DNA of 24,908 nucleotides from a virus, in the IMG/VR virus record IMGVR_UViG_3300011114_000059, positions 1 to 24,908 of that record. One strand, written 5' to 3'. Position numbers and translations under genes: made by a program. The notes under the pieces are model-generated. The model worked only from the letters and a program-made list of their open reading frames with translations. It searched no databases and had not been told where the DNA came from. This document shows, piece by piece, positions 1 through 15,512 of the stretch (position 1 is its first letter; each line of letters starts with the position of its first letter).

Positions 1-71
1 GTAGTCGGAACTGCATCCAAGCTATTAAAACTGAATTGATTCTTCATTGTGTTTCCCTTCTTTAGTTAACT

Positions 72-255
72 GGGGACGTCCCCCAAAAAGTCCTCGCAAA
101 CCAACACCCCCGAAGGGCAGGGCACTACATTGGTAGCGGCAAGGCCGGAAGGCCCAACGCCGTGCCACAGCTTTATCGTGGCGCGGGTGCCGCAACCTCG
201 CGGGCTGTAAGAGGAACTACCGCAGCCCGCGCACCTAGCGAGGCTGGGGGCGTCC
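72..255 (+). ncRNA. candidate branched structured RNA, family unknown
   Basis: A GC-rich island in an AT-rich non-coding region can fold into a closed, branched structure. The outer stem pairs GGACG (74-78) plus CCCCC (80-84) with GGGGG (246-250) plus CGTCC (251-255), leaving one bulged T. A second stem pairs CCTCGC (92-97) with GCGAGG (238-243). Inside are CCC/GGG (108-110 with 115-117), a three-way element with GGCA (121-124)/TGCC (163-166), CTAC (125-128)/GTAG (133-136), CGGC (137-140)/GCCG (159-162) and GGCC (143-146)/GGCC (151-154) capped by a GGAA tetraloop, and a 9-bp hairpin CGCGGGCTG (199-207)/CAGCCCGCG (223-231). The GNRA loop has its proper sense on the + strand. A competing local palindrome, GGGGACGTCCCC (72-83), exists. 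I could not match it to RNase P, tmRNA, a group I intron or another known class. Folding was judged by eye only. Confidence 0.42.
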
Positions 256-538
256 ACAGATAACTACAGAAGGATAAGAAACACAATGGATAAACAATTC
301 GGTTTTGTTTTAATAGCTGGGTGGATGCAATTCCGACACCTCTCTGCCAGGTTTGTGGGCTGCTGTTACCATCCATGGGACGATACAGCCGCTGGATTAC
401 TACGGCTTCAGCGACTACCTCACCGAAGTTGGGGATGGTGAAAGCAAACTCGCTCCTCCTCGTCAAGGAAGAGGCTGTTGCGAAGATTGCCAAGAGGAGA
501 CATACCCACAAGGGTAACAAGGTAGGGGGGATAGTCAC

Positions 539-558
539 CCATACCAATACTGGTGTGG
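539..558 (+). other. stem-loop
   Basis: CCATACCA (539-546) can pair with TGGTGTGG (551-558), giving eight base pairs including one G-U around an ATAC loop. It lies in the gene-poor leader. No T-tract follows, so it is not an obvious terminator. Confidence 0.3.
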
Positions 559-615
559 TTAAGTGGTACTTACCTGGTAGATGTTATGGATAGTAACAAC
601 AGTAGTTGGGCATAT

Positions 616-646
616 GTTAGTGAGTGCTAACTTACTGAGTAGTAAG
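616..646 (+). repeat. two tandem hairpins with near-identical loops
   Basis: GTTAG (616-620) and CTAAC (627-631) flank TGAGTG. CTTAC (631-635) and GTAAG (642-646) flank TGAGTA. The two 16-base hairpins share base 631 and have almost the same six-base loop. This looks like a duplicated recognition element. Its partner is unknown. Confidence 0.4.
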
Positions 647-664
647 GGAGTTGTAATTGCTAAT

Positions 665-676
665 GTTATTAATAAC
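665..676. repeat. palindrome copy 1, GTTATTAATAAC
   Basis: A perfect 12-bp palindrome and the first of eight exact copies of GTTAYTARTAAC in the window. This copy lies in the gene-free leader, 19 bases after the tandem hairpins. Confidence 0.6.
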
Positions 677-690
677 TTACCGTCATGTTG

Positions 691-755
691 TAAGCTGCAT
701 CAACCCCCACAGTTACATCACTGCCCCTGCTGTCCTAAGCTACATCAGGTGGGGG
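691..755 (+). repeat. direct repeat TAAGCTRCATCA with pairing C and G tracts
   Basis: TAAGCTGCATCA (691-702) and TAAGCTACATCA (736-747) are 11/12 identical and 45 bases apart. The first is followed shortly by CCCCCAC (704-710) and the second by GTGGGGG (749-755), which are perfect reverse complements. The segment could therefore fold into a 7-bp stem with a 38-base loop. Confidence 0.4.
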
Positions 756-761
756 AGGGGA

Positions 762-773
762 AAAGCATGCTTT
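762..773. promoter_or_regulatory. 12-bp palindrome AAAGCATGCTTT, operator-like
   Basis: A perfect palindrome directly before the AT-rich array. Its symmetry fits a dimeric DNA-binding protein site, but no second copy was seen and no regulator is encoded in the window. Confidence 0.25.
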
Positions 774-840
774 GCTAAAATTTATATATCACCACATGTA
801 ACGATTTTTATAGTTTTTAAATAGTGGGTAGGTACTCCCT

Positions 841-977
841 ATATATATATAACTACTATATAACTACTAATAACAACATATATATAACTACTACCCCCAT
901 ATATATATATATATAACTACTATATAAAAGAACTAATGTTGTTACTAATAACAACTACTATATATATAACTACTACT
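841..977. repeat. AT-rich iterated array, possible replication origin
   Basis: About 137 bases of TA dinucleotide runs are punctuated by repeated ATATAACTACTA-type units, near 847-857, 858-868, 881-893, 911-924 and 966-976. The second palindrome copy is embedded at 941-952. Iterated short repeats in an easily melted AT-rich tract in a gene-free region are typical of replication origins. A packaging or recombination site is the main alternative. No initiator gene lies in the window. Confidence 0.4.
941..952. repeat. palindrome copy 2, GTTACTAATAAC
   Basis: Exact copy of the 12-bp motif inside the AT-rich array. Its flanks extend the symmetry to GTTGTTACTAATAACAAC (938-955). A 10/12 relative lies at 863-874. 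Confidence 0.6.
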
Positions 978-1021
978 GCTCTTGCTGTTGAATCTCAGTC
1001 TAGAGCCTTATAGGGCCTATT

Positions 1022-1035
1022 CTTACAAATGTAAG
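1022..1035. promoter_or_regulatory. inverted repeat CTTACA-AA-TGTAAG
   Basis: Six-base arms separated by two bases, 98 bases upstream of the first gene. It could be an operator for a dimeric regulator of the packaging genes. There is no other support. Confidence 0.25.
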
Positions 1036-1098
1036 CGTTTTCATTTTGGCTGTAGGGTTATTAGCTATTGTTCTTTTTCACCCACTGTGGTTTACTTC

Positions 1099-1120
1099 CG
1101 TTCCATAGAGATATGGAACG
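1099..1120 (+). promoter_or_regulatory. 5' leader hairpin with GAGA tetraloop before the first gene
   Basis: CGTTCCATA (1099-1107) and TATGGAACG (1112-1120) are a perfect 9-bp inverted repeat around GAGA, a GNRA tetraloop on the + strand. It ends 12 bases before the ATG at 1133, leaving only the AGGA ribosome binding site between. No T-tract follows. It is more likely an mRNA-stabilising, processing or translation-control hairpin than a terminator. Confidence 0.5.
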
Positions 1121-1132
1121 AGTACACAGGAT

Positions 1133-1663
1133 ATGAAGCGAGGTAGATCTAAATACCCCTGGTTTAAGAAAGCTCTCTGGACTCAGAACCAGAAGCTTGA
1201 GGCTGTAGCCACCTACGTCATGCTTGGCAGTCTTACTGAGACTGCCTTGGTTACAGGCATCCCAAGAGACACCGTTAAGTCCTGGAAACTAACCCCCTGG
1301 TGGAAAGAGATACAGGCCCAGATCAGGCAAGACGATATACAGGCTCTGGACAGCAATCTCCAAAGGGTCATTGGGAAGGCTCTAAAAGCCACAGAAGACC
1401 GTCTGGATGCTGGGGAGTACCAGTATGACCCCAAGACTGGCAAAGTCATCAGAATCCCCATTAAAGCCTCCGTAGCCCTAAAGATAACAACCGAGCTGCT
1501 TACCAAGCAGGACATCCTTAGGGATGTTCCTGAACGTATGGAGATTGAAAAGACCATTGATGCTCGATTAGCCAAGCTTGCTGAGGAGTTTCAGAAGTTT
1601 GCCAAGGCAAAGACAATTGATGTGGTGCCGGATGTTATTAGTAGCATTGCTGTTACCCCTTAA
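1133..1663 (+). CDS. terS: probable terminase small subunit
   Basis: This 176-residue protein probably recognises phage DNA and hands it to the large terminase. A helix-turn-helix-like segment is visible around residues 22-55, where a helix (LEAVATYVMLG) is followed by TETALVTGIPRDTVKSWK, the usual arrangement in small terminases. The rest is helical and charged (residues 60-165), as expected for an oligomerising subunit. Its position as first gene of the packaging module, 1.9 kb before the large terminase, supports the call, but no sequence identity to a named TerS was checked. The ATG at 1133 has CACAGGAT just upstream and follows a perfect 9-bp hairpin. Near the C-terminus the codons for VIS fall in an 11/12 copy of the repeated palindrome (1634-1645). 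An alternative is a generic HTH regulator. Confidence 0.6.
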   Translation: MKRGRSKYPWFKKALWTQNQKLEAVATYVMLGSLTETALVTGIPRDTVKSWKLTPWWKEIQAQIRQDDIQALDSNLQRVIGKALKATEDRLDAGEYQYDPKTGKVIRIPIKASVALKITTELLTKQDILRDVPERMEIEKTIDARLAKLAEEFQKFAKAKTIDVVPDVISSIAVTP

Positions 1664-3572: not shown

Positions 3573-5099
3573 ATGGCTGAAAGCCGCTTATCCGCAGAGG
3601 TTCTTGAAGGTTTTGTAAACAGCGTACTTCGCAAGAACTTTGATGACCCTGCGGATAATGCCGAGTTTCACAGAGAGATTTGGCAACTAATCTGTTCTGA
3701 TAGTACCAAGGTAGCTATAGCAGCCCCTCGTAACCACGCTAAGAGCACCGTAGTAACTCATGCCTACGTACTGGCTTCAGTCCTGTTCAGGGAACAGTCC
3801 TACGTAATAATTGCCTCGGATACTGTAGGGCAATCTGTTCAGTTTCTTGGGGATATAAAGAAGGAGTTAATGGAAAATGACGATCTCAGGAATCTGTTCG
3901 GGGTTAAAGAGTTCATTAAAGACACTGAAGACGACCTTATCTGCAACATGGATGACGGTCATCTCTTTCGTATCCAGGCTAAAGGATCGGAACAAAAGCT
4001 AAGGGGTTTAAAGTGGAAGAACCGTAGGCCGGGTCTCATTGTCGGTGACGACATGGAGAACGATGAGATTGTAATGAACCGAGACAGGCGGCTTAAGTTC
4101 AAGCGGTGGTTTTATGGGGCCCTGCTCCCAGCCCTGTCAGACAAGGGCAAGATACGCTTGGTAGGTACCATTCTCCACCTGGATAGCCTTCTTGAGAACC
4201 TGATGCCTGGTAGCCTCCTTAGGAACGTCAGGAACGGACACAAGTACCTAGTCCGTGAAGACCTCAAGGAGTACACAGACATGAGGCTTTCCTGGAAGTC
4301 TGTTAAGTACCGAGCCCACACCGACGACTTCAAGAAGATCCTTTGGCCTCAAAAGAAGTCAGCAGAGGCCTTTAAAGCCCTGAAAGAAGACTACGCTAGG
4401 CAAGGATTGTCTGATGTCTACAGCCAGGAGATGCTTAACGTTCCTGTAGATGAGACTGATACCTTCTTTAAACAGCAGGACTTCTTTGCTATGAAGGTAG
4501 AAGACAAAAAGAAAAAGCTGCTTTACTACATCACCTGTGATCTGGCTGTGTCCCAGTCCCAGAAGGCTGACTACTCAGCTTTCTGTGTGGCTGGTACGGA
4601 TGATGAGGGTAAATTGCACCTAGTTCATGTTCTAAAGGAGAGGCTTGACTCTTTACAAATTGTGGATACTATGCTGGCTTTACAGCGTATCTATAAGCCG
4701 GTACTCTTCGGCATTGAAAAGGGTGTCATTCAGAAGTCTATTGGGCCATATCTCAATGAGGCCATGCAAAAACGCAACGAGTATCTCAGCACAGCTTTAT
4801 TGGCTCCTTCTGCTGACAAACTAACTCGTGCAAGAAGCATACAGGCCAGGATGAGAGCAGGTGCGGTTAGGTTCGATAAAGATGCTGATTGGTACCAGCC
4901 TTTTGAAGACGAGCTAATGAAGTTCCCACGGGACAGACATGATGACCAGGTAGATGCCTGGGCATACATGGGTCTTATGTTAGATAAGATGTGGGAAGCT
5001 CCTACTGAAAAGGAGGACGAAGACGAAGAGTACCGACTTATGGTACGCAAGTTTAAAACCGACGACATGGTTGGTAGAAGTCCTACTACAGGGTATTAG
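3573..5099 (+). CDS. terL: terminase large subunit
   Basis: This 508-residue motor cuts concatemeric DNA and pumps it through the portal using ATP. The ATPase domain has a Walker A-type loop PRNHAKST (residues 52-59), a Walker B strand LIVGDDME (155-162) and a VGT coupling motif (197-199). The C-terminal RNase H-like nuclease domain shows the expected acidic residues: D323 in YYITCDLAVSQ, E382 in FGIEKGV, and D457/D458/D461 in HDDQVDAW. Length and motif order are normal and the gene looks intact. The C-terminus carries a very acidic stretch (EKEDEDEE, 479-486). The start has only a weak ribosome binding site (AAAAGGGG is 16 bases off), so coupling to the gene before is likely. The portal gene follows after five bases. 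Confidence 0.95.
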   Translation: MAESRLSAEVLEGFVNSVLRKNFDDPADNAEFHREIWQLICSDSTKVAIAAPRNHAKSTVVTHAYVLASVLFREQSYVIIASDTVGQSVQFLGDIKKELMENDDLRNLFGVKEFIKDTEDDLICNMDDGHLFRIQAKGSEQKLRGLKWKNRRPGLIVGDDMENDEIVMNRDRRLKFKRWFYGALLPALSDKGKIRLVGTILHLDSLLENLMPGSLLRNVRNGHKYLVREDLKEYTDMRLSWKSVKYRAHTDDFKKILWPQKKSAEAFKALKEDYARQGLSDVYSQEMLNVPVDETDTFFKQQDFFAMKVEDKKKKLLYYITCDLAVSQSQKADYSAFCVAGTDDEGKLHLVHVLKERLDSLQIVDTMLALQRIYKPVLFGIEKGVIQKSIGPYLNEAMQKRNEYLSTALLAPSADKLTRARSIQARMRAGAVRFDKDADWYQPFEDELMKFPRDRHDDQVDAWAYMGLMLDKMWEAPTEKEDEDEEYRLMVRKFKTDDMVGRSPTTGY

Positions 5100-13785: not shown

Positions 13786-14685
13786 ATGTCAAATATTCAA
13801 TTTACTAACTTTGCTGCAACAACCCTAGCTTCAGGGATTAATAGTGTTGTTACTAGCCTGACTGTAGCTACTGGCACAGGAGCACTGTTTCCAACTCTAG
13901 CTGGAGCACAATACTTTTATTGTGTTCTGGCTGATGCTGCTACAGGCGTTACTAGAGAAGTTATAAAAGTAACTGCAAGATCTACAGATACTTTTACTAT
14001 TACTAGGGCTCAAGATGGCACTACTGGGCAGACGTATATAACTGGAGACAAGGTTGAGCTTCGTCTTACTTCTGCTGGTATAGCTACTCTAGCAACTACA
14101 GAAACAGCCCAGACCTTTGCTGGTGTTCAGACGTTTTCCTCAGCTCCTGTATTGTCAGCCCCACTAGCAGCTTCTGGTGGTGGAACTGGTGTTGCTAATA
14201 ATGCAGCAAGCACCATTACCATGTCGGGTAGCTTTGCCAGCACTTTTGTAGTTACTGGTGCGTTCTCGTATACCCTGCCAGCCGCTTCAGATACCCTGGT
14301 CAACCTTGGGTCAACGCAGACCCTGACAGCCAAAACGCTGACGAATCCGACCGTAACAAATTACGTCGAATCCGTGGTCGCCATCGGAACGGTAACGAGT
14401 TCCTCTACCTTGTCGCTGACATCCGGCACAGTTCAGACCGCAACCTTGACCGCATCCACGGCTTGCACGTTTACCATGCCGACTGCTACTGCTGGCAAAT
14501 CCTTTGTGCTTTTGCTTAAGCAAGCGGCGGCTACCGGAAACGGAACGGCAACATTTACCGGCGTAAAATTTGGAACTGCTGGTGCGCCGACGATTACCGC
14601 AACCGCGGGCAAGATGGATATCTTGACCTTTATCGCTGATGGCACAAACTGGTATGGCTCAATCGCGCAAGGTTATACGCCGTAA
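13786..14685 (+). CDS. tail fibre protein, probably mosaic
   Basis: This 299-residue protein begins with a virion-attachment-like part (FTNFAATTLASGINSVVTSL to TRAQDGTTGQTYITGDKVEL), then a GGGTGVANNAASTI linker typical of tail fibres, and ends with a beta-rich distal domain closing in FIADGTNWYGSIAQGYTP. Base composition and codon choice shift near 14230-14290: upstream codons are A/T-ending, downstream ones (CCG, GCG, ACG, TCC) are G/C-ending. The shift falls at the linker, so the distal half was likely swapped by recombination. The stop overlaps the next start. Confidence 0.75.
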   Translation: MSNIQFTNFAATTLASGINSVVTSLTVATGTGALFPTLAGAQYFYCVLADAATGVTREVIKVTARSTDTFTITRAQDGTTGQTYITGDKVELRLTSAGIATLATTETAQTFAGVQTFSSAPVLSAPLAASGGGTGVANNAASTITMSGSFASTFVVTGAFSYTLPAASDTLVNLGSTQTLTAKTLTNPTVTNYVESVVAIGTVTSSSTLSLTSGTVQTATLTASTACTFTMPTATAGKSFVLLLKQAAATGNGTATFTGVKFGTAGAPTITATAGKMDILTFIADGTNWYGSIAQGYTP

Positions 14686-15512
14686 TGTTTGCCGCTAAGA
14701 ATATGTTTTTGACTAGCCAAGTCCCTGCGCCTTCCGCAGTTAATTACCTTGTCGTAGCGGGTGGCGGCGGCGGGTCTAGTTACGGCGGTGGTGGCGGTGC
14801 TGGCGGTTTTAGAACAGCGGCGTCATTGGCTGTTTCCGGTGGAACTTCGTATACAGTAACTATCGGTGCCGGTGGTAACGTGGACGGCAACGGATCAAAC
14901 TCCGTATTTTCGTCCATAACATCTACAGGCGGCGGTAAAGGCGGCAACACAGGCGCTGCGGCAGGGAATGGTGGTTCGGGTGGCGGCGCTGGTGGAACTG
15001 GCAGTTCTATTGGAACGGGAACAGTTGGGCAGGGAAATAATGGCGGCGCAGAATATACCAGCGGATTTGACAGGGGGTTTGGCGGTGGTGGTGGAGCTAC
15101 CGCTGTCGGCGTTACGGCTACGAACGGTAACGGCGCTAACGGCGGTGCTGGCACATCCAACTCGTATTCCGGCTCCGCTGTCACATATGCTGGCGGTGGA
15201 GGCGGCGGGTTTGATGGTCGTGGCGCGGGAACAACTGGCGGGACAGGCGGTTCGGGTGGCGGCGGCAATGGAACCGCGTCAGGAACCGCAACAGCAGGGA
15301 CTGTAAACAGGGGCGGTGGTGGTGGTGGCGCAGGGTATACAGCAGGGTATGGAACTGCTGGAACTGGCGGTTCAGGCATAGTAATAATTTCTTATGCGTC
15401 AACTAGCGGCGATTTACTGTCCATTGGCGGCGGGTTGACGTATACAAAAACGGCTTCTGGTGGCAACACTATATACACATTCACAGCCGGAACCGGCAGT
15501 ATTAATTGGTAA
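14685..15512 (+). CDS. glycine-rich tail adhesin-like protein
   Basis: This 275-residue protein contains many runs of Gly with spacer residues. It opens at about residue 20 with NYLVVAGGGGGSS and closes with GTGGSGIVIISYA, then a small beta domain (GGGLTYTKTASGGNTIYTFT). Such glycine-rich domains form polyglycine-II bundles in phage receptor-binding adhesins, and their variable loops select the receptor. That role here is inference. The start is coupled to the fibre gene (TAATG at 14683-14687). Composition is GC-rich relative to neighbours. A long proline-rich antisense reading frame is only its shadow. Confidence 0.72.
   Translation: MFAAKNMFLTSQVPAPSAVNYLVVAGGGGGSSYGGGGGAGGFRTAASLAVSGGTSYTVTIGAGGNVDGNGSNSVFSSITSTGGGKGGNTGAAAGNGGSGGGAGGTGSSIGTGTVGQGNNGGAEYTSGFDRGFGGGGGATAVGVTATNGNGANGGAGTSNSYSGSAVTYAGGGGGGFDGRGAGTTGGTGGSGGGGNGTASGTATAGTVNRGGGGGGAGYTAGYGTAGTGGSGIVIISYASTSGDLLSIGGGLTYTKTASGGNTIYTFTAGTGSINW

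Follow-up and report, generated by a model that had tools for sequence, protein, structure and literature searches.

The GC-rich stretch at positions 72–255 of a 24,908-base IMG/VR virus record (the window, considered here at its full length) is a member of a family of folded sequences, so far undescribed, that is common to tailed phages, filamentous ssDNA phages and the transferable elements of a single bacterial family. The fold, its family, its covariation, its single copy, its constant strand, and the recurrence of one arm (P3) and, mostly, of an accompanying hairpin across three mutually unrelated kinds of mobile element are all established, as are an enrichment of mini-hairpins, a characteristic placement beside a leftward gene, and the presence of inverted arms whose differences are evenly spaced. 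The reading that we favour, with an assigned probability of roughly 0.4, is that the element may be a conserved single-stranded DNA (ssDNA) initiation/promoter or priming module of mobile elements, akin to Frpo or to the minus-strand origin of phage f1.

The fold and its family

Folding of the plus strand of 72–255 gave a minimum free energy of −94.4 kcal/mol (z = −4.75), a stability reached by none of 200 dinucleotide shuffles (mean −74.4, sd 4.2); the corresponding value for the minus strand was z = −3.04. These data confirmed the fold proposed in the initial annotation, which had described the stretch as a possible new structured RNA, and bore out the GC contrast remarked on there (approximately 0.68 in the core versus approximately 0.2–0.5 nearby). 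Every stem and hairpin that it had named was present in the predicted plus-strand fold: an outer stem (74–83/246–255, 10 bp with one G.T), a 6-bp inner stem (92–97/238–243), a GGAA-capped hairpin (143–154), and a 9-bp GC hairpin (199–207/223–231) whose sequence also occurs in the related loci L002 and L003. Overlooked at that stage were a three-way junction at 136–193, consisting of P1 (136–141/188–193), P2 (143–146/151–154, with the GGAA loop) and P3 (160–168/178–186); the sequence CCC-GAA-GGG at 109–117, a GNA-triloop hairpin of a class enriched in the family; and the long inverted repeat whose inner end is the outer stem. The self-complementary sequence GGGGACGTCCCCC at 72–84 is able to fold locally into a hairpin or to contribute to the outer stem, and is the counterpart of the GAGGGG...CCCCTC of relatives.

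The prior failure to place the stretch in any known family was substantiated by a search of the whole window against Rfam (4227 families), which returned no match at the gathering score, and none overlapping 72–255 within window positions 1–1200 at E values up to 10. A tRNA/tmRNA search of the window found none, and the only Rfam matches in 26 related loci (tRNA, glycine riboswitch and group I intron) all lay away from the element, so that known RNA families could be ruled out. Coding was similarly ruled out: a 63-aa minus-strand open reading frame (ORF) does span 66–257, and is argued against by the covariation and the altered lengths encountered in relatives. The description of a new structured RNA thus stood in so far as the element is structured, conserved, covarying and outside Rfam; its RNA nature was not established, and the unit extends beyond 72–255.

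Relatives were sought with the product of the anchor gene at 1133–1663 (plus strand), presumed to be the small terminase subunit (TerS) from its position before TerL in a tailed-phage late operon that also includes portal, major head protein and connector genes; its best PHROG match is an entry of unknown function. The single protein recovered four loci and an alignment 53 IMG/VR loci; L002, with a TerS 100% identical to that of the window, contains the complete site. In most of the 53 TerS-related loci with enough upstream DNA a GC-rich element was located at the same divergent junction, typically with a core of approximately 160–300 nt and 0.6–0.7 GC, 0.9–2.4 kb to the left of TerS, in surroundings of about 0.4 GC. 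Two outgroup phages with a related TerL (L008 and L009) had neither arms nor the P3 arm.

Eight type-A cores yielded a consensus containing a three-way junction, with two-sided changes at 14 of 47 pairs and one-sided changes at none of the 47 in alignment A3. An alignment of the P3 arm (21 sequences, 20 distinct) defined the consensus RUGMCA...UGGCGY within the GC-rich fold at the divergent junction, which the window carries as GUGCCA...UGGCGC in its own P3. Pair 15–80 was A-U in 11 sequences and G-C in nine, and the U.G wobble at pair 16–79 was invariant (20/20); 86.1% of cells were paired as against 78.0% after shuffling, and the covariation score of 0.223, compared with 0.106, was reached by none of 500 shuffles, confirming that the arm covaries among relatives.

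The covariance model R1, trained on 21 sequences from the same loci on which it was scored, matched 35 of 56 sources (521,646 bases), once in each and always on the plus strand; 19 of 25 whole records had a match, 18 of them a single one, the second match in G010 having an E value of 0.45. Model R2, built from 18 sequences excluding the window, L002 and L003, found positions 149–199 of the window (20 bits, E = 0.0038) as its sole match there, and over the sources of these three loci its only matches were this one and those in L003 and L002. Family membership of the window thereby rests on a P3 arm within a GC-rich fold, detected by a model that had not included it; its group is a diverged member lacking the CAAAG/CGAC internal loop. 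The P3 model is thus a ready search tool. Outside this set, blastn of window positions 1–600 against 50,697 phage records gave no match, a TerS search of 84,980 genome species produced 111 pattern stretches and no relatives, and none of the entries listed in searches of the open-licence PMC library described the element. Two further observations concern the related loci: a second GC-rich folded stretch lies some 1–2 kb to the left of the main element in several of them (approximate starts L015:1865, L018:2452, L034/L035:2741 and L042:2963), and a RTGMCAGCNNNGCTGGCRYG hairpin, which resembles the closing pairs of P3, was recorded in L021, L025, L033, L041, L052, L054, L056 and L057.

Occurrence and gene setting

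Scanning of viral contigs with the pattern CACAAAG...CGACTGGCGYG gave 101 stretches, 80 of which were obtained as loci. R2 scored above 39 bits in 19 of these, the next best reaching 18.1, and most of the 19 were contigs already in the set, six being new. The at least 119 matches to the same pattern in genome contigs were mostly due to chance, only one of the 80 scored, L250 from Aquabacterium sp. CECT 9606, being a strong R2 match. Both L250 and the new viral contig L096 proved to be filamentous phages, with Zot in each and Rep_trans in L250; blastn of the L250 element against phages and plasmids returned no convincing match. Within the bacterial family of L250, 17 of 399 genomes matched at E values up to 1e-3 and seven at up to 1e-4, the latter threshold giving two of 399 in the order sample and two of 398 in the phylum sample, one in each case being L250's own genome.

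The 17 comprised filamentous phages with a Zot match (L250, L323, L327, L330, L332), loci with other filamentous-phage-type genes (L325, L334), six homologous islands (L326, L329, L331, L333, L336, L338), a chromosomal copy of the element beside an ArdA-type antirestriction gene (L324, 5186–5692, minus strand), and three probable chance matches in coding DNA (L328, L335, L337), which were rejected. DUF932 was detected in islands L329, L331, L333 and L336, L326 and L338 being assigned by DNA similarity; ParA and ParB (ParB/KorB) were present in L333 and L336, and some of the six islands carried two P3-like hairpins. Flanking DNA of two islands added a type IV secretion system coupling protein for L336 (flank L361) and an integrase for L331 (flank L364); in the vicinity of one island are a type I restriction locus and a conjugative coupling protein. 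Two further matches (L357, L358) had no homologue of the probes in their flanks.

In the filamentous phages with a Zot match the element was invariably on the Zot strand, intergenic and after Zot, with Rep on the same strand where found, and in four filamentous-phage-type loci (L096, L323, L330, L334) a resolvase follows on that strand. The motif was absent from all six named filamentous phages examined. In three saliva filamentous phages (L352, at ~1390; L353, at ~1833; L354, at ~1475) a TGCCACRTGGCGAA hairpin stands after Zot, which may be a remote variant of the P3 arm.

A second shared motif, the CCCCTCRC hairpin, occurred 64–98 nt before the start of the P3 model in 13 of 26 tailed-phage loci (as CCCTCTCRC in six more) and 75–90 nt before P3 in eight of nine filamentous-phage/ArdA loci, the exception being L330; four of the six islands also had it, at −82 in one and at a greater distance in the other three. 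It was absent from the window and L003.

In all three classes a leftward gene lies to the left of the element, such that the folded strand is its template. The window retains only the 5' end of this gene (1–47, minus strand, start codon 47–45) with a Shine-Dalgarno-like GAAGGG at about 55–60; the gene is whole in L002, where it encodes a 72-aa protein (P0001) with no match in Pfam, PHROG or PADLOC. A small FDFNAFN-type protein gene occupied this position in 11 of 17 listed tailed loci, the longest ORF picked in the other six being a different one, and the leftward neighbours elsewhere included ArdA (L324), ParB_N (L323, L325, L330) and DUF932 (L329, L331, L336). To the right, a G-rich, C-poor plus-strand stretch at 541–760 (GC skew up to +0.43) is succeeded at 761–1000 by AT-rich DNA with repeated TATATAACTACTA-like units, a candidate unwinding region. 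In L005 an extra 210-aa ORF (4365–4997, plus strand), absent from the window, intervenes between the AT-rich stretch and TerS. In all four whole-length records the element lay no more than about 0.8 kb from the detrended cumulative GC-skew minimum, and in one of them the leftward genes include a DNA polymerase, a DnaB-like helicase and a primase; this minimum alone does not prove an origin, because gene orientation flips at the same place.

Inverted-repeat arms

The outer stem continues into a long imperfect inverted repeat, the left arm of which is represented in the window by 4–83 (plus strand; pairing with 246–337 at 77%, E = 6e-13). In L002 the repeat extends over approximately 300 nt per arm and scores 263, where 200 shuffles gave no more than 48: the left arm consists of the small leftward gene, its leader and its terminator, and the right arm is a degenerate, frameshifted inverted copy of the same, corresponding to 256–545 (plus strand) in the window, with leader and terminator hairpin. 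The arrangement was the same in L003, L004 and L005, and alignments of L002–L005 placed the end of the arm just past the terminator-like hairpin of the gene. Among 32 loci with a defined core, clear arms were present in 13, the element being enclosed in a 300–500-nt imperfect inverted copy of the neighbouring gene, and weak or none in the other 19.

The right arm is hypervariable between phages that are otherwise about 99–100% identical around it. Comparison of the window with L002 (4126–4413) gave 257 identical positions, 25 mismatches (25 of 282 sites) and four gap columns within the arm, as against 219 identities and one mismatch at 541–760 and no mismatch in the next 240 positions; the arm is possibly a hot spot of template-switch rewriting. 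Differences between the arms were more evenly spaced than in shuffles (p at most 0.03 in 12 of 13 loci; 0.068 in L052), and perfect runs of 10 or more numbered 11 in total, compared with about 52 expected by shuffling and about 55 by a simulation with realignment, which gave slightly lower densities and, for individual loci, weaker p values (0.000–0.055). Substitutions in the right arm were strongly directional: C was lost 312 times and gained 62, G gained 283 times and lost 90; A>G plus C>T changes numbered 259 against 74 of G>A plus T>C (45:0 in L032, 55:2 in L015), and C>G changes 62 against 13 of G>C. In 11 of the 13 armed loci the arms matched the gene of their own genome best (rank 1 of 32).

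From these patterns we infer that the arms arose by repeated fold-back copying: a nascent plus strand would fold back on the outer stem, and copying would run through the neighbouring gene to the terminator hairpin before switching back. The copy would then decay, long perfect palindromes being selected against in a transcribed or single-stranded stretch. Inverted gene copies with mismatches spread so evenly are an evolutionary oddity, testable in their own right.

The nature of the folded strand and its possible role

Mean z values over 31 elements were −3.43 and −2.44 for the plus and minus strands with RNA parameters, and −2.88 and −2.45 with DNA parameters; these values identify the plus strand as the one that folds, RNA parameters performing best. 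Hairpins with a GNA or GNNA loop closed by at least two G-C pairs are, according to an excerpt of PMC4686876, extraordinarily stable DNA mini-hairpins (GCGAAGC Tm 78 °C), GCGNAGC being described as such for ssDNA in excerpts of PMC4686876 and PMC10527192. On the folded strand of 32 cores GCGNAGC occurred 46 times against 6.5 expected from shuffles (sd 2.2), on the opposite strand three times against 2.4; 29 of the 46 had only a 2-bp stem, and 21 of the 32 cores contained at least one. The window core has none, carrying CCC-GAA-GGG instead. Outer stems from seven filamentous-phage-type loci (L330 and L324 being left out since their outer stems are interrupted) comprised 54 pairs without a single G.U and covaried; of the first six positions, five had two to four pair types.

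The GCGNAGC excess and the occurrence in filamentous phages together make folded ssDNA slightly more likely than RNA; the strand specificity of that excess, the outer stems devoid of G.U and the presence in filamentous ssDNA phages indicate ssDNA at least as well as RNA, and the first two of these weaken a reading in terms of RNA alone. The ssDNA reading is itself weakened by the better plus-strand z obtained with RNA parameters, by the invariant G.T/U.G pair of P3, which is natural for RNA, by the absence of GCGNAGC and CCCCTCRC from the window core, by the six named filamentous phages without the motif, and by the double-stranded DNA (dsDNA) of tailed phages, where a single-stranded stage is assumed. 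It is further weakened because no −35/−10 boxes were found in the cores, the best 12-position matches over 32 cores being 7.16 (plus) and 7.38 (minus) versus 7.37 and 7.44 after shuffling, and because the leftward small gene of the tailed phages has no recognised function.

The closest known counterparts are the Frpo/ssi sequences of conjugative plasmids (F, ColIb-P9). According to excerpts of PMC9849209 and PMC11541004, Frpo ssDNA promoters stand before leading-region genes; folding reconstitutes the −35 and −10 boxes (PMC9849209), and the genes behind Frpo/ssi promoters include those for anti-defence functions, SSB and similar (PMC11541004). Compared by description, the present element resembles them in being a stable fold of the template strand placed before establishment/anti-defence-type genes (here ArdA, ParB-like and DUF932), and differs in its three-way junction with an invariant P3 and in its presence in tailed and filamentous phages. 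Since the −35/−10 boxes that define Frpo were not found beyond the level of shuffles, a canonical Frpo was ruled out and the element was not filed under that name.

The minus-strand origin of filamentous phage f1/M13 is a folded structure on the virion strand, intergenic and after an assembly gene. The element has the same placement, being intergenic on the Zot (hence virion) strand after Zot, whereas its structure differs and it is found also in dsDNA tailed phages and integrative elements. The virion-polymerase promoters of phage N4 are small GNA-type DNA hairpins on one strand, a feature shared here; by way of contrast, the present element gathers many such hairpins in one compact junction, and no giant virion RNA polymerase was seen among the genes examined.

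The element probably marks the start of the first copying of a single DNA strand. We infer ssDNA rather than RNA, a host factor, and priming or transcription as the components of a mechanism in which the single-stranded plus strand would fold into the outer stem, the CCCCTCRC hairpin (in most members), the three-way junction with P3 and the cGNAg mini-hairpins. A host factor, RNA polymerase or a primosome being the simplest candidates, would recognise this fold, and the folded strand would then template synthesis that starts in the leftward direction. For filamentous phages the product would be a primer for the complementary strand, the element serving as minus-strand origin; for tailed phages and integrative elements, it would be the first transcript of a leftward establishment/anti-defence-type gene and/or a primer at a replication origin.

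The main rival is a structured RNA, a possible but doubtful reading in which rightward transcripts would carry the element in a long untranslated leader, acting either in cis, as an antiterminator or leader regulator for the late operon, or in the form of an independent RNA bound to a host protein or RNA polymerase. It draws on the strongest folding signal being that of the plus strand with RNA parameters, on the invariant U.G pair and internal-loop letters of P3, on the four same-strand resolvases downstream, and on the non-coding, G-rich, C-poor stretch to the right, which would suit an untranslated transcript that avoids Rho or is prone to R-loops, as is expected of such a composition from the base preferences of both. 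Antiterminator RNAs of the HK022 put type would, compared by description, likewise explain a folded leader before a rightward operon; the orientation of the element in the DUF932 islands, where no immediately downstream gene was evident on that strand, does not fit. Also against an RNA are the strand-specific enrichment of 2-bp GCGNAGC hairpins, a DNA-type motif, the outer stems free of G.U, the lack of one-sided pair changes in alignment A3 and the lack of an Rfam match. The phi29 pRNA and the GOLLD/ROOL class of large, ornate phage RNAs are similarly structured non-coding phage elements, and differ in that no covariance model matched, Rfam having been searched as a whole. If the element does prove to be RNA, it would still represent a new and widely shared structured RNA family outside Rfam.

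A folded DNA site for recombination, packaging or integration (a packaging signal of filamentous phages, an att-like site or a template-switch hot spot), operating without transcription or priming, is improbable. Its intergenic position after Zot, adjoining resolvase genes in several loci, and the inverted duplications at the site in tailed phages would agree with such a role; its occurrence once per genome at a divergent junction would not, and a shared packaging or att signal is unlikely because we know of no packaging machinery common to terminase-packaged tailed phages and filamentous phages. Less probable still is the reading of the long arms as a giant hairpin RNA (about 800 nt), with selection maintaining the pairing of the right arm to the left. 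The arms do track the gene of their own genome, their differences are evenly spaced, and the excess of A>G and C>T changes would preserve G.U pairs in a plus-strand transcript; however, losses of C are to all three other bases and the DNA beyond the arm is likewise poor in C, so that this bias needs no pairing and is explained by composition, and weak or absent arms in 19 of 32 loci are difficult to reconcile with such selection.

Extending the ssDNA promoter/priming reading, a rather unlikely proposition is that one hitherto undescribed module, carried by filamentous ssDNA phages, by tailed phages with dsDNA genomes and by conjugative elements of a single bacterial family, activates the earliest genes of each carrier, those for establishment or counter-defence, with tailed phages too expressing genes from a single-stranded DNA stage and, in some, with repeated fold-back copying of the neighbouring gene. 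If the favoured ssDNA reading itself is right, one folded DNA signal would be common to three kinds of mobile element that are unrelated yet found in the same bacteria, would provide a direct handle on the start of phage gene expression or replication in uncultivated hosts, and would point to the small genes switched on first as candidate anti-defence genes.

Two observations were made on other genes in the analysed DNA. Window positions 14685–15512 encode a glycine-rich protein with GGGGGAG-like repeats, probably a tail-fibre or adhesin-like ORF, and L340 (7704–10749, minus strand) carries phage genes matching PHROGs named for porphyrin biosynthesis and a cobaltochelatase CobT subunit.
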